Below, one piece after another: positions 6,745 through 18,647 of a stretch of DNA of 64,000 bases; the stretch's first letter is position 1; each line of letters opens with the position of its first letter. The translations under genes were made by a program, and so were the position numbers. Below the pieces are notes generated by a model. It made no database searches. It saw only the letters and a list, made by a program, of their open reading frames with translations, and was not told the DNA's origin. This stretch comes from Tetmemena sp. SeJ-2015 (taxonomy: Eukaryota > Ciliophora > Spirotrichea > Sporadotrichida > Oxytrichidae), in NCBI GenBank assembly GCA_027382625.1, contig JAJKFJ010023088.1, positions 1 to 64,000 on the forward strand, given 5' to 3'.

Positions 6745-8257
6745 ATGAAAATTTAACAAAAATTTTCAACGCAAAAAGGCGGGGAAATGTAAAAATAACT
6801 ACCCAAAGGGGAAACGTTATAAACTAAAACCCCATGGGAAATTACGCGGAGTACTTAATCGCTTGCGAACCTTTTTTAGAAGGGGAAAGCGTGTTGAGCG
6901 TTTTTCGTGCTTGATGCTGCAAACGATGTGCTTATGTAGGTAAGCTAGCTGTATATGCCCGCGAAAAAAAGACCTACGTTCAGTGCATTGGGGGTTTCTG
7001 TAGAGCTAGAAAAGGGTACCAAAATGCTACTGTAAGCAAAACAGTAAACCCTTGGTGCGCCTGCCCATGAAAAACCACTATTGGTACTACCCAATTTGCG
7101 AATGGTGTACTAAAGTGAAGAAAACTGAAAAGTAAGCAAAAGGGGCAAAAAGGGTTTCGCAGGCTTCAATAAATTCGATGAATACCGTTTTAAATATAAC
7201 CGCGCGGGAGAAATAAAAAATGGCGATGCATTGTTTTTAGTTCACCCCAAAAATAAAAATGAGGCCCAAAAAGCCTTTTTCAATAAAATAGCTAAAGATG
7301 AGCTAAGCACTGCTTACACTTGGGAAACCCAGCTTAGCCAAGCAGGCCAGGCAACTTACGAAACTGCCGAAGCGCGCGATGCGGCTTTTGCAGGTAAGTG
7401 GGAGGAAATGATAATGAGCGGTAAACTAGGCTACAATGGCTACGCTACGTAACCTACGAAACATATATGCAGGCCAAAGTATCGGCAGCAGCAATAGAAA
7501 GGGTATGTGCTTATATAGCCGATGCAAATGCAGTGGCTAAAAGCAAGCAGTTCCCTTTCCGTTTTGTAAGCGCATACGCGAGTTGAAATACGAAAGCAAT
7601 GGCTATACCGCGCAAGTGCTAGATGCATTGGAAGATGCAGCGCGTGCAAGTGCGGCCAACATAGCAGGCTACTATAGCAACACCCGTGTAAAAGTGGCGG
7701 TTGACTTTTCAGGCTCAATGCAAACAGCAGTGAGCGGTAAAAGCACTGTAATGATGTACGAGGTAGGTTTAATACTTGCCATGTTGCTAAAAAGCCGTTG
7801 CGCAAACGTAACCACCGGCATATTCGGCGATACTTATAAAGAGGTACAAGTACCTTCTAAAAGTATACTGGCCAATGTGGAAACCTTCCGCAGCCGCTTG
7901 GGCGAAGTGGGACACAGTACTAACGGTTACCTGGTTATCAAAAACTTGATAGACCGTAAAGAGGTAGTGGACAAAGTGATGGTGTTTACCGATATGCAGA
8001 TGTGGAATAGTAACGGAAGCTACGGTTCAACCATAGCAAGCGAGTGGAAGAAATACAAGCAGATAGCGCCAAAGGCAAAAATCTATTTGTTCGACCTAGC
8101 AGGTTATGGTAACACACCGATACAAGTGGAAGCTAACGACGCCTACCTAATAGCAGGTTGGAGCGATAAAGTTTTCGATGTGCTGGCAGCTATCGAGAAT
8201 GGAAGCGATGCGGTAGCGGAAATTGAAAAGATAGAATTGAAAGCAATGATTGAATAA
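6745..8257 (+). CDS. rsr: TROVE-domain protein, bacterial Ro60 orthologue (Rsr)
   Basis: Ring-shaped RNA-binding protein that binds Y RNAs and misfolded or damaged RNAs and helps exonucleases and RNA repair. The N-terminal TROVE (HEAT-repeat) half is broken by frameshifts but readable: MKF start at 6745, YKLKPH, VERF, VGKLAVYAREK, FNKFDEYRFKYNRAG, DALFLVHPKNKNEAQKAFFNK, KWEEMIMSGKLGY. The C-terminal half is an intact vWA domain with the metal-site motif DFSGSMQ at about 7710 and FTDMQMW at about 7990. About 500 residues, normal length. It is followed directly by the Y RNA array and then rtcB. Confidence 0.92.
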
Positions 8258-8293
8258 CTACGGGCGGCTTGCCGCACATACAAAAAAAGTTTT

Positions 8294-8317
8294 GCGCAGG
8301 GTGTTGTTGCCCTGCGC
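8294..8317 (+). terminator. Perfect 8-bp hairpin after the Ro60 gene
   Basis: GCGCAGGG and CCCTGCGC flank an 8-base loop, 36 bases after the rsr stop. No strong T-run follows, so it may protect or process the mRNA end rather than terminate it. Confidence 0.5.
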
Positions 8318-8327
8318 GTGCTGACCC

Positions 8328-8355
8328 ACCCCTTCCCTGCGCTACTGCAGGGAGG
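8328..8355 (+). other. Second hairpin ahead of the Y RNA array
   Basis: CCTTCCCTGC, six bases, then GCAGGGAGG form a stem of nine or ten pairs including one G-T. With the hairpin at 8294 it makes a tandem structured leader to the RNA array. The downstream sequence TTCTTTGAAAG near 8371 recalls leader boxes of rRNA operons in this phylum, but I cannot show a promoter. Confidence 0.4.
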
Positions 8356-8398
8356 GCTTATGGAAGTCGTTCTTTGAAAGATTATTTATTAAACAGAC

Positions 8399-8544
8399 AT
8401 TCAGAGATGTCGTAGAAGCAATGTACTTCGCTAAAATAGGGGAGGAATCATGCGGTACTTGCAACATAGTACGAGATGTTTCGGGTTCTCCCGATAGCTA
8501 TCGGGACGGCATCGGTGCCCCGTCAATCTATTTACTCTCTGAAT
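8399..8544 (+). ncRNA. Y RNA-like unit 1
   Basis: Terminal helix: 8399-8407 (ATTCAGAGA) pairs perfectly with 8536-8544 (TCTCTGAAT). Then a bulged T (8408), GT pairing with AC (8534-8535), the box CGTAG (8411-8415) and the TACTTC box shared by all six units. The body has an anticodon-arm-like hairpin GTACT...AGTAC, a T-arm-like GGGTTC broken by an 18-bp palindrome (8489-8506), and an acceptor-like hairpin GGCA-TCGG-TGCC. The inner helix seen in other units is unclear here. This is the permuted layout of bacterial Y RNAs. Confidence 0.75.
8489..8506. repeat. 18-bp palindrome inserted in a T-loop
   Basis: TCCCGATAGCTATCGGGA is a perfect palindrome placed just after the GGTTC of the T-arm of Y unit 1. 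Near-identical copies occur at the same structural place at 9198-9214 and, as a variant, at 9633-9648. Confidence 0.85.
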
Positions 8545-8553
8545 TATATTTTC

Positions 8554-8660
8554 TACAGCGGTGCCGTATATGCATGTTACTTCGCCTGTCACGCGTTTAC
8601 ACGAGGGAATGCGCGGCCTTAAAACCGTCTCCCGTACATACACAATTATAGCCCGCTGTA
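8554..8660 (+). ncRNA. Y RNA-like unit 2
   Basis: Terminal helix 8554-8561 (TACAGCGG) with 8653-8660 (CCGCTGTA), eight pairs, then bulged T (8562), GC/GC pair, CGTAT in place of CGTAG, and TACTTC at 8578-8583. An inner helix ATGT(T)AC with GTACAT can form. The body (8584-8633) has hairpins around CGGCCTTAAAACCG but no canonical TTCGA T-loop, so the tRNA-like part is diverged or badly read. It touches unit 3 with a single base between. Confidence 0.7.
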
Positions 8661-8661
8661 T

Positions 8662-8759
8662 TAAAGGATGCCGTAAATATGAGTTACTTCTGGCTAATCG
8701 GTTCGAATCCGACTTTACATCTATTGTAATTAAAACTCATGTTGCTTGTTGCTCCTTTA
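8662..8759 (+). ncRNA. Y RNA-like unit 3
   Basis: Terminal helix 8662-8668 (TAAAGGA) with 8753-8759 (TCCTTTA), then bulged T (8669), GC/GC, CG, TAA. The inner helix 8679-8685 (ATGAGTT) with 8734-8740 (AACTCAT) is perfect and differs in sequence from the other units. Inside: a T-arm TCGG-TTCGAAT-CCGA, then an acceptor-like hairpin TTACA-TCTAT-TGTAA. The D-arm is reduced or missing. Length is 98 nt. Confidence 0.8.
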
Positions 8760-8771
8760 TTTAAATGTTAC

Positions 8772-8911
8772 AATAACAGTGTCGTAGAAAAAGCATACTT
8801 CGGTAGAACGAAACACTCATATGTTTAGGTCATAGGTTCAACTCCTGTCTTCATATCAGCAATGGTATGATGTAGTTCAGTTAAACGCGTTTTCGCTTAT
8901 TACCTGTTATT
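8772..8911 (+). ncRNA. Y RNA-like unit 4, holding a complete permuted cloverleaf
   Basis: Terminal helix 8772-8779 (AATAACAG) with 8904-8911 (CTGTTATT), bulged T (8780), GT/AC, CGTAG. Inner helix uses AAAA with TTTT (8890-8893). The body is a whole tRNA split in the D-loop: first GGTAGAAC, an anticodon arm AAACA-CTCATA-TGTTT (CAT triplet), T-arm ATAGG-TTCAACT-CCTGT, acceptor strand CTTCATATCA, tetraloop GCAA, then TGGTATGATG and TAGTTCAGTT. Joining AGTT to GGTA would restore a standard D-loop. The acceptor helix is extended and capped by a GNRA loop. Confidence 0.85.
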
Positions 8912-8917
8912 ATTTAT

Positions 8918-8989
8918 GTCGCGTTCGTCTAACGGTTCAGGACACCATCTTTTCAAGCTGGTTATAGCAGTTCGATTCTGCTACGCGAT
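8918..8989 (+). tRNA. tRNA-Glu(TTC) or tRNA-Glu-like gene
   Basis: Colinear cloverleaf of 72 nt: acceptor GTCGCGT with ACGCGAT (one G-T), D-arm GTC...GAC containing GG, anticodon arm CCATC-TTTTCAA-GCTGG with one mismatch and anticodon TTC, T-arm AGCAG-TTCGATT-CTGCT. No CCA is encoded. It lies between two Y RNA-like units, which is unusual for a housekeeping tRNA. Confidence 0.85.
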
Positions 8990-8992
8990 GCT

Positions 8993-9133
8993 ACAGGTGC
9001 CGTAGATAAGAAATACTTCGCCTCATTAGCGGTTTGTCGCAGGTTCGATCCCTGCCGGGTCCACCATTGTTCTTTTAAGGACCCGTAGCTCAGTTGGTAG
9101 AGCAACTATTATTCTTATCGGCTATTGCCCTGT
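8993..9133 (+). ncRNA. Y RNA-like unit 5, best-formed permuted tRNA body
   Basis: Terminal helix ACAGG (8993-8997) with CCTGT (9129-9133), bulged T, GC/GC, then GCCG-TAG-ATAAGAA (8999-9012) pairs with TTCTTATCGGC (9112-9122), leaving TAG bulged. Inside, in order: anticodon-arm-like TCGC-CTCATTA-GCGG, T-arm GCAGG-TTCGATC-CCTGC, acceptor CGGGTCC, a 16-nt loop, acceptor GGACCCG, then a full D-arm GCTCAGTTGGTAGAGC. Thus the 3' half precedes the 5' half and the two acceptor strands match each other exactly. Confidence 0.88.
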
Positions 9134-9140
9134 TTAATTT

Positions 9141-9222
9141 ATGGAAGTAGATCAGTTGGTAGATTACTTGGTTTTGGGGCCAAGAGGCCGCAGGTTCTCC
9201 CGATAGCTATCGGACTGCCATC
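9141..9222 (+). tRNA. tRNA-Pro(TGG)-like gene with T-loop palindrome
   Basis: Acceptor ATGGAAG at 9141, D-arm GATC AGTTGGTA GATT, anticodon stem CTTGG/CCAAG with an eight-base loop TTTTGGGG (a seven-base loop with anticodon TGG if one T is a basecalling error). The T-arm GCAG...CTGC is interrupted after GGTTC by CCGATAGCTATCGG (9200-9213). The 3' acceptor strand fits poorly, so the end is approximate and the gene may be decayed. Confidence 0.6.
9200..9213. repeat. Palindrome inserted in the tRNA-Pro-like T-loop
   Basis: CCGATAGCTATCGG, the same core as at 8491-8504, again immediately after the GGTTC of a T-arm. Confidence 0.85.
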
Positions 9223-9235
9223 TGTTATATCACCA

Positions 9236-9312
9236 CATTATAAGTGCCGTAGGTTACAGTTACTTCAATATAGGATTGACACCGTACTGTTGCCGCTTAT
9301 TGCCTTGTAATG
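9236..9312 (+). ncRNA. Y RNA-like unit 6, minimal (77 nt)
   Basis: Terminal helix CATTATAAG (9236-9244) with CTTGTAATG (9304-9312), nine pairs with one G-T, bulged T, GC/GC, CGTAG. Inner helix GGTTACAGT (9252-9260) with ACTGTTGCC (9286-9294), eight of nine paired. TACTTC box at 9261-9266. Only about 20 nt lie inside the inner helix, so there is no tRNA-like body: a Ro-binding stem with a small loop. Confidence 0.8.
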
Positions 9313-9394: not shown

Positions 9395-9466
9395 TGCCGG
9401 ATCGCCTAATTGGTAGGGCATCAGAATTTGACTCTGATCGGTGCGGGTTCGAATCCTGCTCCGGCA
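9395..9466 (+). tRNA. tRNA-Gln(TTG)
   Basis: Complete 72-nt cloverleaf: acceptor TGCCGGA/TCCGGCA perfect, D-arm GCCTAATTGGTAGGGC, anticodon arm TCAGA-ATTTGAC-TCTGA (anticodon TTG), T-arm GCGGG-TTCGAAT-CCTGC. No encoded CCA. This is the most canonical tRNA in the array and could be functional. Confidence 0.92.
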
Positions 9467-9472
9467 ACATGT

Positions 9473-9495: not shown

Positions 9496-9567
9496 TGGCT
9501 GGTATCCCAACGGAAGAGGAAGCAGGCTTAGAACCTGTACAGTGAGAGTTCGAATCTCTCCCGGTCA
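9496..9567 (+). tRNA. tRNA with anticodon TAG (Leu codon) on a class I body
   Basis: Acceptor TGGCTGG with CCGGTCA (two G-T pairs), D-arm TCC CAACGGAAGA GGA, anticodon arm GCAGG-CTTAGAA-CCTGT (one G-T), five-base variable loop, T-arm GAGAG-TTCGAAT-CTCTC. A TAG anticodon reads the Leu codon CUA, but genuine bacterial tRNA-Leu has a long variable arm (class II), and this one does not. It is therefore an odd tRNA or a tRNA mimic. Confidence 0.8.
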
Positions 9568-9573
9568 ACACAT

Positions 9574-9659
9574 TGTTTCGTAGCTCAGATGGAGGTAGCA
9601 TCCCACTTTTAATGGGAGGGTCGCAGGTTCGATCCCGAAGCTTCGGGACTGCCGGAACA
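9574..9659 (+). tRNA. tRNA-Lys(TTT)-like gene with T-loop palindrome
   Basis: Acceptor TGTTTCG/CGGAACA, D-arm starting GCTC AGATGGAGGTA GC, anticodon arm TCCCA-CTTTTAA-TGGGA (anticodon TTT), T-arm GCAG...CTGC interrupted by TCCCGAAGCTTCGGGA (9633-9648). Without the insert it would be a normal tRNA of about 72 nt. Confidence 0.82.
9633..9648. repeat. 16-bp palindrome in the tRNA-Lys T-loop
   Basis: TCCCGAAGCTTCGGGA, a perfect palindrome with the same TCCCGA...TCGGGA flanks as the copy at 8489 but the centre AGCT in place of TAGCTA. Confidence 0.85.
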
Positions 9660-9667
9660 ACAAACAT

Positions 9668-9737
9668 TGATTCATAGTTCAACGGAAGAACAGGGCTCTA
9701 CGAAAGCTCAGATAAGAGTTCGAGTCTCTTTGAATCA
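9668..9737 (+). tRNA. tRNA-Arg(ACG)
   Basis: Colinear 70-nt cloverleaf: acceptor TGATTCA/TGAATCA perfect, D-arm GTTC AACGGAA GAAC, anticodon arm GGGCT-CTACGAA-AGCTC (anticodon ACG, one G-T), T-arm AGAG-TTCGAGT-CTCT. No insert, no encoded CCA. Confidence 0.88.
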
Positions 9738-9742
9738 ACTAA

Positions 9743-9836
9743 TGGAGAGCAGGTAGATATTGAAATGGATTGTGTGCCGCGAGGCTATGCTCGCGGTGGC
9801 GAGTTTTACCTCGCTATTCAATTCCCTCCGCTCCGC
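9743..9836 (+). pseudogene. Decayed tRNA-like unit carrying the 40-nt double hairpin
   Basis: The 3' part TTCAATT-CCCTC-CGCTCC looks like a T-loop and acceptor strand and the 5' part GGAGAGC could pair in five of seven places. In between, only 33 nt precede the inserted repeat, too short for D- and anticodon arms. Either truncated or misread. Confidence 0.4.
9777..9816 (+). repeat. 40-nt double-hairpin repeat, copy 1
   Basis: Hairpin CCGCGAG-gctatg-CTCGCGG followed by hairpin GCGAG-ttttac-CTCGC. It is placed directly before the T-loop sequence TTCAATT, as in the two other copies. Confidence 0.85.
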
Positions 9837-9842
9837 TGTATT

Positions 9843-9955
9843 GAACAAGTAGCTCCAATGGTAGAGCAGCGGTTTGAAGCACCGCCACGATTATGGCCGC
9901 GAGGCTATGCTCGCGGTGGCGGGTTTAACCCCGCTATTCGATTCCATTCTTGTTC
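9843..9955 (+). tRNA. tRNA-Phe(GAA)-like gene with 40-nt insert in the T-arm
   Basis: Acceptor GAACAAG/CTTGTTC perfect, D-arm GCTCCAATGGTAGAGC, anticodon arm GCGGT-TTGAAGC-ACCGC perfect (anticodon GAA), T-stem ATGG/CCAT with loop TTCGATT. Between the 5' T-stem strand (ends 9896) and the T-loop (starts 9937) lie exactly 40 nt of the double-hairpin repeat. Removing it leaves a 73-nt standard tRNA. Confidence 0.85.
9897..9936 (+). repeat. 40-nt double-hairpin repeat, copy 2
   Basis: Same as copy 1 except that the second hairpin has GCGGG paired with CCCGC instead of GCGAG with CTCGC: a compensatory double change that keeps the stem. Confidence 0.88.
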
Positions 9956-9964
9956 ACATATAAT

Positions 9965-10044
9965 GGTGAAGCTGGTGTAATTGAGCCGCGAGGCTATGCT
10001 CGCGGTAGCGAGTTTTACCTCGCAATTCAATTCTCCTCTTCACT
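9965..10044 (+). pseudogene. tRNA-like unit lacking the anticodon arm, with 40-nt insert
   Basis: Acceptor GGTGAAG with CTTCACT (one G-T) is complete. Then CTGGTGTAATTGAG leads straight to the repeat (9986-10025) and the T-loop TTCAATT followed by CTC. The D-arm is a remnant and the anticodon arm is absent, so it cannot decode. It could be a deletion derivative or a mini-tRNA mimic. Confidence 0.55.
9986..10025 (+). repeat. 40-nt double-hairpin repeat, copy 3
   Basis: Differs from copy 1 at two positions (one in the linker between hairpins, one at the last bases), both outside the paired arms. Inserted before TTCAATT. Confidence 0.85.
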
Positions 10045-10321: not shown

Positions 10322-11772
10322 ATGGAAACTGAAAGAATAACCGATGCCGATATACAGGCATTGGGTATTGCTGACGAGGAAATGGTAAGGGTATTCGGCA
10401 GGTTGGCAAATGCAATTGTTCGAAACACAGAAATGGATAAAGCTACGGCACTGCAACACATGGCCGATGTTATGCGCACTCCGTTTTTGTACATGCAGCA
10501 GTGGAACAAATTCCGCAGCATGGCTGTAATGGTAAGCGAGTACCGCGCTGCGGGCAAGCTGCCAGCTGTACTTAACAGTACCATGCATAGCGAGCCATTG
10601 CCGTATGCTGTATTCGGGCGAAAGCATATAGACAAAGGAGCATTTGAGCAAATGGAAATAGCCATGCGCTTGCCTATAACGGTAAGCGGTGCTTTAATGC
10701 CCGATGCACACACAGGTTATGGTTTGCCCATAGGTGGGGTGCTAGCTACCGAAGCCGATAAAATAATACCCTTTGCCGTGGGTGTGGACATTGCCTGCCG
10801 AATGTGTATGAGCGTGTTCGATATACCATCGAATATATTGGATACACAAGGCGAGTTGCTGAAAAGTTTGCTGGTGAAGCATACCGTTTTCGGCACAGGT
10901 GGCAAAACCAAAACCAAGTACGACAGTAGTATTATAGATAAACCGAATGGGAGGAAACTGAAAAACTACGTTCATTGAAAGATAAGGCATACGAGCAGCT
11001 AGGCACCTCGGGCACAGGCAACCACTTTGTAGAGTGGGGCGAAGTAGAAGTAGCTGCGCCTAACGAAGCAGTGCCTTTGCCAGCGGGTAAATACCTGGCC
11101 TTGTTATCGCACTCAGGTTCGCGCGGGTGGGTGGCAGCATTGCCAACTACTATTCGCGCATAGCCGAACGCAAAACCAACTTGCCGCAGCACGCTAGGCA
11201 CTTTGCTTGGCTTGGCCTGAACAGCGAGGAAGGTTTGAGTATTGGATAAGTATGAACCTAGCGGGCGAATATGCGGCGGCTTGCCATCATGAAATACATA
11301 ACAAGATGGCGAAGGGGTCTTGGTGTACACCCAGTAAGCAGGGTAGAAAACCACCACAACTTTGCATGGCAGGAGCAGCTAGCCGATGGCACTACCGTAA
11401 TGGTGCACCGCAAGGGCGCTACGCCGGCAGGCACGCAGCACTTGGGGTATAATACCTGGCAGCATGGCTGCACCGGGGGTTTACATAGTTAAGGGAAAAG
11501 GCTTTGCGGCAGCTATCAATTTCTGCAGCCATGGTGCAGGCAGGGCTATGAGCCGCGCCGAGGCTATGCGTAGCATTGAGAAAAGTGATATGCAGTATGA
11601 ATTAAAGCGCATAAAATTGAATTGATAGGTGGTGACATAAAATTGAGTCGCCAAGGGCCTACAAGGATATAAATACCGTAATGGCAGCAAGACCGATATG
11701 GTAGAAGTGCGGCGAAATTTAAAACCGCGCATTGTACGTATGGCTTATAGAAAGAGCGTAGGCGAAGACTAA
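10322..11772 (+). CDS. rtcB: RtcB family RNA ligase, copy 1
   Basis: GTP- and Mn-dependent ligase that joins 2',3'-cyclic phosphate (or 3'-phosphate) ends to 5'-OH ends, as produced by anticodon nucleases. Motifs in order: [23 protein letters not shown] (metal Cys), GTSGTGNHFVEWG, LSHSGSRG, RVENHHNFAW, and SHGAGRAMSR with the His that takes GMP. About 480 residues. Two or three frameshifts (near 10960, 11140, 11230, 11450) split it; all motifs are present, so I take them as errors. The Ala in VDIACRM replaces the usual Gly. It follows the tRNA array. Confidence 0.93.
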
Positions 11773-12464: not shown

Positions 12465-13881
12465 ATGGCAAAGTTAAAACTAAGAGGAAAAGACCTGCGT
12501 GCTATAGGCTACCCAGAGGGGCCTGTAATAAGCGTAGCCATGAATTTTAAAGGAGAAAACTACAAGCATCTACCCCGCAAGAGGCTTTGGATATATTGAA
12601 AAACATATTGGATAGCCCCGCCCAGTATATGGAAGATGCAGTGCTGAAACCGATAACCGTTTTTTGATAGAAAAGCCAAAGGTGGGAGGCCCATATGTAT
12701 GAACTGAACGCTGAAAAGGTATAAACTAAGCACGTTCGGGGCGGAACATATAGAAGAAGGCGCTATAAAACAGATGCAGGTAGCAAGCCGTTTGCCTGTA
12801 TCGGTGGCGGGTGCTTTAATGCCCGATGCAACACCAAGGCTATGGTTTGCCTATAGGTGGTGTGCTAGCTACCCATAATGCCATAATACCTTACGCGGTA
12901 GGTGTGGATATAGGTTGCCGTATGTGTTTTAGCGTGTTCAACGTTTCCCGCGGGCGAAAATACGTGCGAGAGATAAATTTTCGAGCGCGAGTTGAAAGCC
13001 TACACGCTGTTTGGTGCAGGCCGCGAGTTTAAAGAAACTACCGAGCACGATGTGCTTGACCGTAAGGAATTCGATGAGGTTTCTTTTTCTTGAAAGGCTT
13101 GCAGATGAAAGCAGCAAGGCAGATAGGTTCACGGGTAGCGGGAACCACTTTTGTAGAGTGGGGTATAGTAGATATACCAAGTTCAGATAATGCATTGAAG
13201 GTGCCGCCGGGTAAAATACGTGGCATTGCTATCGCACTCGGTTCGCGTGGGTTTTGGTGCCAGCATAGCAGGCCACTACACCAAAATAGCGGGTGGAGAA
13301 AAAACCCAAACTCCCGCAAGAGGCAAGGCATCTTGCATGGCTTGACCTGAAACACGCAGGAAGGTATGGAATACTGGGGAATAGCCATGAACCTAGCGGG
13401 CGACTAGCTAGCGCGGTGCCACCATATAATACACCGCAAGTTGGCAAAGGCAATAGGAGAGAAGCCCATAGCTATGGTGGGAACCACCACAACTTTGCAT
13501 GGAAGGAAACATGGGAAGGCCCCGAGGTGATAGTTTTCATTCGTAAAGGTGCTACGCCTGCAGGTAAAGATGTACTAGGTATAATACCTGGTAGCATGAC
13601 GGCCCCAGGCTACCCTAGTGAAAGGTAAAAGGGGAGTTGGCATCCGTTAACTCGGCTAGCCACGGGGCAGGCGTAAAATGAGCGTAGCCAAGGCGCTGCA
13701 AAACATAACGCACTCGGCTATGAAAGATGAGCTGAAGGCGCACGGGGTAACATTGATAGGTGGGGGACTGGACGAAGCGCCATTTGCCTACAAGGATATA
13801 CATACCGTAATGGCAGCGCAAAAGCAACTGGTAGAAGTAGAAGGCCTGTTCTACCCACGCATAGTAAAAAGGGATGGATAA
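12465..13881 (+). CDS. rtcB: RtcB family RNA ligase, copy 2
   Basis: Starts [20 protein letters not shown], a different N-terminus from copy 1. Motifs: [44 protein letters not shown]-like [23 protein letters not shown], and SHGAG before KMSV (guanylylated His). About 470 residues with at least six frameshifts. Copies 1 and 2 are clearly diverged paralogues rather than a recent duplication. It shares the operon direction with the Ro60 gene and the AAA gene. Confidence 0.92.
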
Positions 13882-16846: not shown

Positions 16847-17590
16847 CTAATCCCTATAAGCTTTACCCGTAAGGTTTAGGAACAAGCCTTCCAAGCCGTC
16901 TTGCTTGTGTTCTTGCAATAAGGTCTGCAAATCGTTCTGCGCTATTATTTCGCCGCTATCTATTAAGGCTACTTTGTTGCACAGGCTCTCGGCTTCGCCT
17001 AGTTGGTGGGAGGTGTAAACAAGCGTAGTGCCTTCAGCGTTCAGCTGTTTTAGGTAATCTATAATAGCATGGCGGGTTTGTACATCTACGCCTGTAGTAG
17101 GTTCATCTAGAAACAAAATCTTCGGCTTGTGAATGACGCCTATGGCCAGGTTAACGCGGTTCTTCATACCACCGCTAAACTTGGCTACTGGCTTATCGCG
17201 CACATTGGTAAGGCCCCATTACTTCCAGCAGTTCATCGGTGCGCTGTTTTATCTCTTTTCTGTTCAAGCCCGACCATGCACCGAAGAAGGAGAGGTTCTC
17301 AACAGGGCTTAACTCCTGATAGAATGAATGGTGCTGCGGCACAAAACCGAACAGCTTATTTACGTCCGTCTTATCAATATTTATCTCGTTGCCCAATAGC
17401 TGTATGCTGCCTTCTTATGTTCCAGCACGCCAGTCATCAGGTTCATCAGCGTAGTTTTGCCCGCACCATTAGGACCGAACAAACCAAAGCGCTCGCCCTG
17501 CTCTACCTTTAGGTTAAAGCCCTTGAACATCACACCCGAATTTTCGGCGTAGTGAAAGCCCATATTTTGTATGCTGATAGCTGGCTGCAT
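16847..17590 (-). CDS. ABC transporter ATP-binding protein (exporter type)
   Basis: Energises an export or lipid/pigment transport step. MQPAISIQNMGFHYAENSG start, Walker A LFGPNGAGKTTLMNLMTG, Q-loop FGFVPQHHSFYQELSP, signature FSGGMKNRVNLAIG, Walker B ILFLDEPTTGVD, and switch His TSHQ. About 245 residues, normal for the DrrA/CcmA group, with two frameshifts (near 17210 and 17400). Next to the BtrH-like gene in the same direction. Confidence 0.88.
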
Positions 17591-17637: not shown

Positions 17638-18647
17638 TTACCACTTCATTTTGTACAACAACCTAAACGCTTGCTTCTCTTTCTCGGCTATCTCCAATAG
17701 GTAGTCCGACATTTGGTTGAAGTCCTTCTGCTCGGTTAAGCGGCCTTTGTATATGCCCGATGCCTGTACGGCTGCCGTGCGCCATTGGTCGCCTATGGCG
17801 GTAAATTTCTCCGATGCTTCTAACAGCGTATCGTTAGGAATATAAGCATGTGCCTGTTGTAGAAATGCAGCATACACAAAGCGGAAGCCGCCGCCGCCCG
17901 TGCCTATCTCTTCCTGCATACGCACTAACTGCGCCAAGTAGCTGCCTGCCACTTTCGGGCCAAGGCTATCGCGCCAAGTGCGGATGCGATTAGCTGTAAA
18001 GCGTATGCCCGCCACGCCCAATATCGGCACAGGGTTTCTGTCATAAACCACGATGCATGGCTAATGCCTTTCTTGATAGCCTTTTGCATACGCTCCTTGG
18101 TAACGGGCTTGCCCGGCTTAGGGTAGTATATCTGTCCGTTGAGGGCAAGGGCACCTTTAGCAAAACGTACACGCTCCAATTCGTAACTGCTTAGGTGCGT
18201 AACAGTTTCCATTACAGGGTCGCTAACCAAGTAATTGTCGCCTTCTTTGCCATACACCACTATGTTGTGTGCATTGAAGTGGAAGCGGAACTCTTTAGGG
18301 AAATAAGTCAAGAAATAAACACCCACTTGGCAGCCTGCAGGCTGACCTTTAGCCAAACAATCATCTAGGAACTGCTGTGCCTTTTCTTTGCTGCTAAACT
18401 TCTTGCGCTCTATAGGAATATCCAATGCGCCGCAGGTGCGGTTAAATATCCAACCCGGCATGGTGCGGAATGATATTGCAGGGCCGTTGCTTATTTTCAA
18501 AAACGGTATGTGTATGTAGAATATACCCGCGCCGATACCGAATGCCAATGGCTCGGTAATTTCTTCTACGCCTATATGCTTTAGTAAGTTGGTGGTAACA
18601 CCGTTTTCGCAGTGCGCTGCCTGTAAGTGCTGAAAGTTAAGCTCCAT
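17638..18647 (-). CDS. BtrH N-terminal-like protein
   Basis: MELNFQHLQAAHCENGVTTN start, where the early Cys and His resemble the papain-like cysteine acyltransferase site of BtrH (butirosin acyl transfer). Then FGIGAGIFYIHIPFLK, RTCGALDIPIERKKF, VYGKEGDNYLVSDP, and a DUF4872-like C-terminus IGTGGGGFRFVYAAFLQQA. About 335 residues, one frameshift near 18050. In this phylum such genes accompany pigment and dialkylresorcinol clusters; a role in transferring an acyl group from a carrier protein is inference. Confidence 0.75.

Follow-up and report, generated by a model that had tools for sequence, protein, structure and literature searches.

A tandem array of predicted Y RNAs between Ro60 and RtcB, and related arrays with interleaved tRNA genes in Bacteroidota

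The Ro60 locus and its six-unit array

The window, i.e., the whole stretch of 64,000 nucleotides that was analyzed (positions 1 to 64,000 of contig JAJKFJ010023088.1, assembly GCA_027382625.1, filed under the ciliate Tetmemena sp. SeJ-2015), comes from a bacterium and carries genes for Ro60 (Rsr) and for the RNA ligase RtcB and, between them, six tandem units that are very probably bacterial Y RNAs, all in the reading direction of Ro60. An earlier interpretation made without database searches (the sequence-only reading) had placed six units here, and a script searching for the motif and the closing helix returned six with identical ends. Each runs, 5' to 3', from one helix strand through a bulged T, GY, CGTA, 9 nt and TACTTC to RC and the other helix strand; the CGTA..TACTTC boxes, bulged T, GY/RC pair and closing helix said to be shared are present in all six. 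The array and its flanking genes are listed below (R1 is our covariance model, and the permuted tRNA half is defined with the identity of the units).

7583..8257, + strand: Ro60 (Rsr), C-terminal half with vWA (open reading frame; PF25045 vWA_Ro60, 35.4 bits); N-terminal half upstream in broken frames
8399..8544, + strand: predicted Y RNA, unit 1, 146 nt; closing helix 9 bp; palindromic insert within a T-arm-like stretch; not recovered by R1
8554..8660, + strand: predicted Y RNA, unit 2, 107 nt; tRNA-like module not detected; R1 33.1 bits
8662..8759, + strand: predicted Y RNA, unit 3, 98 nt; T-arm only; R1 54.3 bits
8772..8911, + strand: predicted Y RNA, unit 4, 140 nt; permuted tRNA half (T-arm, acceptor strands pairing 6/7, D-arm); not recovered by R1
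8993..9133, + strand: predicted Y RNA, unit 5, 141 nt; permuted tRNA half, acceptor strands pairing 7/7; R1 42.9 bits
9236..9312, + strand: predicted Y RNA, unit 6, 77 nt, short type; R1 68.8 bits (a copy of this unit from the L001 contig, described next, was in the model)
10322..10978, + strand: RtcB RNA ligase, first open piece (PF01139, 59 bits), continuing in broken frames

The contig of the window is rich in errors (it comes from a 146-Mb assembly of 5213 contigs), and the frames of both Ro60 and RtcB are broken, which we take to be the reason why a TROVE search of the window's own assembly gave 0 matches. The same six-unit array is found in L001, a contig of the metagenome-assembled genome (MAG) of Bacteroidetes bacterium SZAS-55, a near relative, with identities to the window of 143/146, 103/108, 98/98, 140/140, 139/141 and 77/77 for units 1 to 6. 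Because L001 holds this array together with open genes for Ro60 (L001:3054-4592, 512 aa, TROVE and vWA) and RtcB (482 aa), the array of the window is not an assembly artefact. The vWA domain in the window, the two domains of the L001 protein and the co-occurrence with Ro60 among genomes (see below) bear out the claim that Y RNA-like units lie beside a Ro60 gene. From the end of Ro60 to the first unit, the window (8258-8398) has ~690 nt less than L001 (L001:4593-5424), whose spacer encodes a 243-aa open reading frame with a sub-threshold Pfam match only.

Motif and pairing compared with chance

With variable spacing between the boxes, CGTA..TACTTC has 8 matches in the 64 kb, compared to 1.55 expected; in six of the eight the boxes are exactly 9 nt apart, and all of these are clustered in ~860 nt of the + strand. 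When 24 sources (387,518 bases) were scanned for motif plus closing helix, 85 units were found in 23 of them and none in the reversed sequence, which still had 42 motif matches (118 in the real sequence). A good closing helix with the unit's own 5' flank was formed at 64 of the 73 exact motif matches in these sources, whereas exchanging the flanks among matches gave 6.5 such helices on average and 14 at most (200 shuffles). For 11 short units, the covariation score was 0.774, compared to 0.204 when shuffled and at most 0.203 when slid. The covariation that had been claimed for the terminal helices is borne out. Within the window, no unit pairs better with the downstream region of another unit than with its own (unit 3 ties with the region of unit 2 at 19.5, where the search stretch extends into unit 3, and nearly ties with that of unit 5 at 19; unit 5 nearly ties with the region of unit 6, 16.5 vs. 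16).

The inner helix (H2), which is absent from the sequence-only reading and was not used in selection, was analyzed in 77 of the 85 units (those outside the window and of the same spacing). Eight of its positions pair in 75-88% of the units, compared to 42-70% with shuffled partners, while the ninth pairs at chance level (45% vs. 44%); total pairing reached 542 and did not exceed 403 in any of 2000 shuffles. The bulged T is present in 77/77 units, the scan having favored a one-base bulge but not the identity of the base. Both ends of the units form a stem with a conserved bulge. At the inner end of helix 1, one of the last three pairs is invariant, and mispairing occurs at the two others in 3 and 4 of the 11 short units, respectively. 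The folding energies of single units are moderately better than those of shuffles (z -0.95 to -2.87), which is weak evidence.

Identity of the units

The closing helix with its bulged U, the GY/RC step, a second covarying helix and then UACUUC together give the units the layout of a Ro60-binding domain. In 30 of the 85 units, compared to 0.65 per pass in shuffled middles, the middle is a permuted tRNA half, in which a T-arm is followed by seven acceptor bases, a loop, seven bases that largely complement the acceptor bases, and the beginning of a D-arm; a T-arm was detected in 56 units (5.55 in shuffled middles). The sequence-only reading had pointed to such a permuted tRNA-like module as a feature of known bacterial Y RNAs; in the window it occurs in units 4 and 5, with a T-arm in unit 3, and was not detected in units 1, 2, 3 and 6. 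The Rfam YrlA model (RF02553) aligns unit 5 end to end (41 bits, E 4.2e-7; gathering cut-off 69). On the basis of these features, the six units are an array of diverged, putative Y RNA paralogues, for which binding to Ro60 and expression as small RNAs are predicted from sequence, and the Bacteroidia RNAs can be read as belonging, as a divergent branch, to the class of the known Y RNAs.

Of ten phage and plasmid Ro60 loci (L134-L143), five have one to three YrlA matches each (a single match exceeds the cut-off), and the other five have no such match. R1 gave a clear match in a Xanthomonas phage (36.6 bits), one moderate match (23.3 bits) and four near noise. In Vibrio phage Va1, Ro60 is followed by 2.8 kb without annotated genes (L136:6512-9350) that contain one tRNA and no YrlA or R1 match.

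Distribution of the arrays in Bacteroidota

A search with the Ro60 piece of the window led to 10 loci, each with at least one exact motif. Since Rfam at its curated cut-offs found no Y RNA in the window or in L001-L010, we built our own covariance model, R1, from 11 short units and ran it on 295 Bacteroidia genomes (as far as listed, the same genomes that were searched for TROVE, which is present in 14), scoring 16 first-look candidates per genome. R1 matched 12 genomes, namely 12 of the 14 TROVE-positive and 0 of the 281 TROVE-negative ones (Fisher 1e-19). Seven of the 14 had contributed training units, and R1 matched five of the seven others (Fisher 1e-9). Of its 29 matches, 25 lie at most 3 kb from Ro60; the other four (genome G087) are 26 kb off on the same contig.

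Together, the motif scan (85 units) and R1 (13 further units) yielded 98 units in 23 sources, 2-7 per source, a count that includes the window and in which the same array enters twice, with the window and with L001. Several predicted Y RNAs per Ro60 locus are thus the rule in the Bacteroidota loci examined, and six are not exceptional there; the earlier statement that one or two are usual is compatible with the phage and plasmid loci.

The sequence of units behind Ro60 is similar in L062, L063 and L069: first comes one with a GTGCAAATC T-arm, next one of ~100 nt that has the T-arm only, and then the full permuted ones; the positions of short units and tRNA genes vary. The order is partly shared by L072, L070 and the window, whereas L061, L064, L071 and L073 depart from it. 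When the Ro-binding cores of the 53 units assigned to a class were compared, the nearest relative at another locus belonged to the same class in 68%, compared to 38% (maximum 58%) with shuffled labels. By class, this was the case for 24/26 full permuted, 6/9 T-arm-only, 2/7 GTGC and 4/11 short units; orthology of the core sequence thus holds for two classes and fails for two, and we do not claim conservation of each array member.

tRNA genes in and around the arrays

The following tRNA and tRNA-like genes lie within and downstream of the array in the window:

8918..8991, + strand: tRNA-Glu (TTC), between units 4 and 5 (ARAGORN; Rfam tRNA 49.7 bits)
9141..9211, + strand: tRNA-Pro-like, palindromic insert in the T-arm (Rfam tRNA 16.7 bits, below gathering; ARAGORN calls tRNA-Pro (TGG) at the matching place of L001)
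9395..9468, + strand: tRNA-Gln (TTG) (ARAGORN)
9496..9569, + strand: tRNA-Leu (TAG) with a short variable loop (ARAGORN; the L001 copy has 74 nt, the other Leu-TAG of that genome 83 nt)
9574..9643, + strand: tRNA-Lys-like, palindromic insert (Rfam tRNA 26.2 bits, below gathering; anticodon TTT by eye)
9668..9739, + strand: tRNA-Arg (ACG) (ARAGORN)
9843..9956, + strand: tRNA-Phe with an insert not in L001 (Rfam tRNA 29.8 bits; tRNA-Phe (GAA) in L001; alignment)

The hairpin insert of tRNA-Phe, present in the window (9843-9956) and not in L001 (L001:6868-6940), is an insertion or loss polymorphism between close relatives. Unit 1 and several tRNA-like genes contain palindromic hairpin inserts in their T-arm regions (8489-8506, 9198-9215, 9633-9648, 9777-9796, 9897-9916, 9986-10005). 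A search of the entire SZAS-55 MAG for the element CCGCGAGGCTATGCTCGCGG (at most 2 mismatches) gave 2 matches, both inside the array.

In 13 further Ro60 loci (~205 kb), ARAGORN called 66 tRNAs at eight loci, up to 23 each (L073 23, L071 14, L062 12, L072 7, L069 4, L064 3, L063 2, L067 1; none at five loci), where ~2 would be expected at the density of genome G001 (at least 33 tRNAs, the number matched by Rfam in its 3.6 Mb). All 66 are co-directional with Ro60. Interleaving of tRNAs with Y RNA units was observed in L001, L062, L069, L071 and L073; one call in L063 (at 6372) overlaps a Y RNA unit, and a tRNA-Val in L069 lies 6 kb from Ro60. In four genomes from which 28, 30, 32 and 15 tRNAs were fetched from elsewhere (not complete sets), 46 of the 55 array tRNAs have a same-anticodon partner, to which they are 53-79% identical. 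The Leu(TAG) genes of the arrays measure 74-75 nt vs. 83 nt for the other copy in two genomes that allowed a comparison. The tRNA clusters of the four genomes thus add to other copies with the same anticodon, as in back-up arrays.

The anticodon loops of 76 array tRNAs (from L001, L009, L062, L063, L064, L069, L071, L072 and L073) were compared with the pooled loops of the four genomes, a seven-base loop being assumed. They differ at position 37 in 24 tRNAs, at 32 in 19, at 38 in 18 and at 33 in none. G37 is replaced by A in 3/3 Leu(TAG), 5/6 Arg(ACG) and 4/5 Gln(TTG), and A37 by G in 4/9 Phe. In L009, L063, L064, L069 and L072, which lie outside the same-genome comparison, some array tRNAs may be housekeeping genes.

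The tRNA genes might be unrelated to Ro60, i.e., an ordinary array or mobile cargo, and at some loci housekeeping genes. Such arrays are known from phages, plasmids and chromosomes, five of the 13 loci have none, and most array tRNAs of L009, L064 and L069, some of them possibly housekeeping, have the usual loop. The excess over the G001 density, the common strand with Ro60, the interleaving with Y RNAs and the divergence from same-anticodon partners make this explanation unlikely.

Other genes of the Ro60 loci

Downstream in the window there is a piece of a second RtcB:

13293..13628, + strand: second RtcB, piece (PF01139, 25.7 bits, just below the cut-off of 27)

In L001 the second RtcB is 44% identical to the first. 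An all-against-all comparison of 22 loci (all but the window and L010, which measures 3.7 kb) identified RtcB relatives in 12 loci, a WYL-type family in 14, always upstream of Ro60 and in the opposite orientation (three members were checked and are WYL-WCX), and a family in 4 of which two members were checked and are RlaP; because some contigs end near Ro60, these counts are lower bounds. The WYL-WCX proteins (e.g., L062:8801-9820, L007:140-1171, L061:9648-10508) are possible damage sensors. When five proteins were submitted to PADLOC, only the WYL protein was matched (two WYL models and a Cas3c model); Ro60 and RtcB were unmatched.

Relatives of Ro60, all below 60% identity, occur in 93 records of phages and 68 of plasmids; an origin of the island from a phage was considered and not adopted. 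RtcR was seen in a Rhizobium plasmid record only, although no search was aimed at RtcR or RtcA. Elsewhere in the window, a BtrH_N domain protein (PF14399, 158.6 bits; 17925-18647, - strand) lies near an ABC transporter fragment (16847-17203, - strand).

Weighing of the explanations

The best overall explanation, to which we assign a probability of about 0.65, combines the Y RNA identity of the units, which is very probable, with the kind of island proposed in the next section, whose full mechanism is somewhat less likely than not. Several findings weigh against it. RF02553 gave weak matches in 22/22 Ro60-positive genomes, none of them (0/22) over the cut-off of 69, and weak matches also appeared in 7 of the 14 control genomes, so that weak matches alone mean little. 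Since only 16 candidates were scored per genome, the lack of R1 matches in TROVE-negative genomes is not exhaustive. R1 missed the TROVE-positive genomes G067 and G239, where the motif scan finds units (L068, L071), and among its 65 matches within loci it recovered four of the six units of the window, but not units 1 and 4. The array of G087 lies 26 kb from Ro60; at L067, the Ro60 locus of that genome, the motif scan covered 16 kb and found no unit. With respect to the island, the T-arm inserts in several tRNA-like genes of the window argue against their use in translation, the five loci without any tRNA gene imply that tRNAs are not an obligate part, and the evidence for a single promoter (see below) is weak.

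Some of these findings would fit a history in which real Y RNAs are present, only one or two of each array being functional and the remaining units and the extra tRNAs being copies left to decay after duplication and insertion. The failure of R1 on units 1 and 4, the palindromic inserts in unit 1 and in several tRNA-like genes, and a nearest-relative test that backs only two of four classes (not GTGC and short) could be explained in this way. Decaying copies would hardly be expected, however, to keep the closing helix in all six units despite its differing sequences, to be identical between the window and L001 (units 3, 4 and 6), to be retained as several members in all 23 sources with units, or to leave position 33 of the anticodon loop unchanged in 76/76 array tRNAs, and we regard this history as quite improbable. 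That the units are tRNA-derived or other structured repeats and not Ro60 ligands, as their tRNA-like middle parts and a Ro60 binding deduced from sequence might allow, is hardly credible in view of a common part that is the stem with the bulged U, not the tRNA part, and of the co-occurrence with Ro60.

Proposed mechanism and its significance

If the locus is a Y RNA array within such an island, its units would be transcribed as one precursor and then cut apart. At 16 loci, 34 of the 59 gaps between consecutive units measure at most 20 nt. Many gaps thus leave no room for promoters of individual units, and the array is probably processed from a single transcript. In a search of these loci with a Bacteroidota-type pattern, promoter-like sites were found once inside the Ro60 gene (L061), once upstream of it (L071) and nowhere inside the arrays, a result of little weight. 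Ro60 would bind the stem of each Y RNA. The tRNA-like Y RNAs may serve as tethers for a partner, for example PNPase, comparable to the known RYPER particle, and the short ones may act as gates or decoys, the differing middles recruiting or decoying differing partners. The extra tRNAs would substitute for tRNAs lost to cleavage and so back up translation, RtcB would reseal broken tRNAs, and the WYL regulator upstream of Ro60 in many relatives would turn the locus on after damage.

RNA quality control and backup translation are the function that we infer for the Ro60/Y RNA/tRNA/RtcB island, and to the full mechanism we give somewhat less than even odds. A broader proposal is more tentative, namely that the Ro60 loci of Bacteroidia are damage-response islands with a parallel RNA kit that might consist of a family of Y RNAs with distinct jobs, a second set of tRNAs (sometimes near-complete and with altered anticodon loops) and RtcB, the permuted modules mimicking different tRNAs. 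If true, the kit would decoy or clear the products of tRNA-cutting nucleases, sustain translation on spare tRNAs and repair the rest. The similar arrays in relatives suggest a genomic kit against damaged RNA.

The combination of the array with an interleaved extra set of tRNAs is more surprising than the Y RNA identity as such. Such arrays represent naturally diverged sets of predicted Y RNAs in which the shared stem can be separated from variable tRNA mimicry, and they bear on the question of why several are kept. Through the link of Ro60 and Y RNAs to additional, diverged tRNAs, it becomes possible to test directly whether Ro60 is connected with tRNA cleavage and with the backup of translation. 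Routine annotation misses the RNAs of these arrays because they score below the Rfam YrlA cut-off; the R1 core model finds many of them.

Comparison with known systems

Likely Y RNAs near Ro60 were reportedly described by Chen et al. in 2014 (in RNA) for more than 250 bacterial and phage species, with at least one per species said to be tRNA-like. Among the titles and abstract openings of the literature on Y RNA, Ro60, RtcB and tRNA arrays, we noticed no Bacteroidota Y RNA array with tRNA genes, which is not proof of novelty.

Rsr binds the stem of the Y RNA (PMC4726728), and the tRNA-like part of YrlA binds PNPase and is modified by tRNA enzymes (PMC8394870). The units described here resemble YrlA (RF02553) and the RYPER particle of Rsr, Y RNA and PNPase in their place beside Ro60, the stem made by both ends, the permuted T-arm, acceptor and D-arm of the 30 units, and the alignment of RF02553 over unit 5; they differ in forming arrays of 2-7 diverged members of several types, many without a tRNA-like part, and in the scores below cut-off in all 22 genomes.

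The Salmonella rsr-yrlBA-rtcBA operon likewise brings together Ro60, Y RNAs and RtcB; it is switched on by damaged tRNAs, and its authors suggest that YrlA might inhibit an anticodon nuclease (PMC7790460). The loci described here have, in addition, interleaved tRNA genes and, in 14 of 22, the WYL-type regulator upstream. A platform for RNA repair, made up of TROVE proteins and a tRNA-like partner, is mentioned in a survey of jumbo phages (PMC7824862).

The trn operon of Anabaena, with 26 tRNA genes, is also an extra tRNA set besides the housekeeping one; it backs up translation under antibiotics and is of help under translation stress, and a single repressor, TrcR, controls both trn and rtcB (PMC10272220). 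There, however, rtcB lies elsewhere, on the chromosome, and Ro60 and Y RNA have 0 occurrences in the available text of that paper. Phage tRNAs with altered loops have been proposed to resist anticodon nucleases (PMC10264068); they are, like those of the arrays, extra tRNAs of which part show loop changes relative to the host set, whereas the tRNAs described here belong to bacterial loci and lie beside Ro60.

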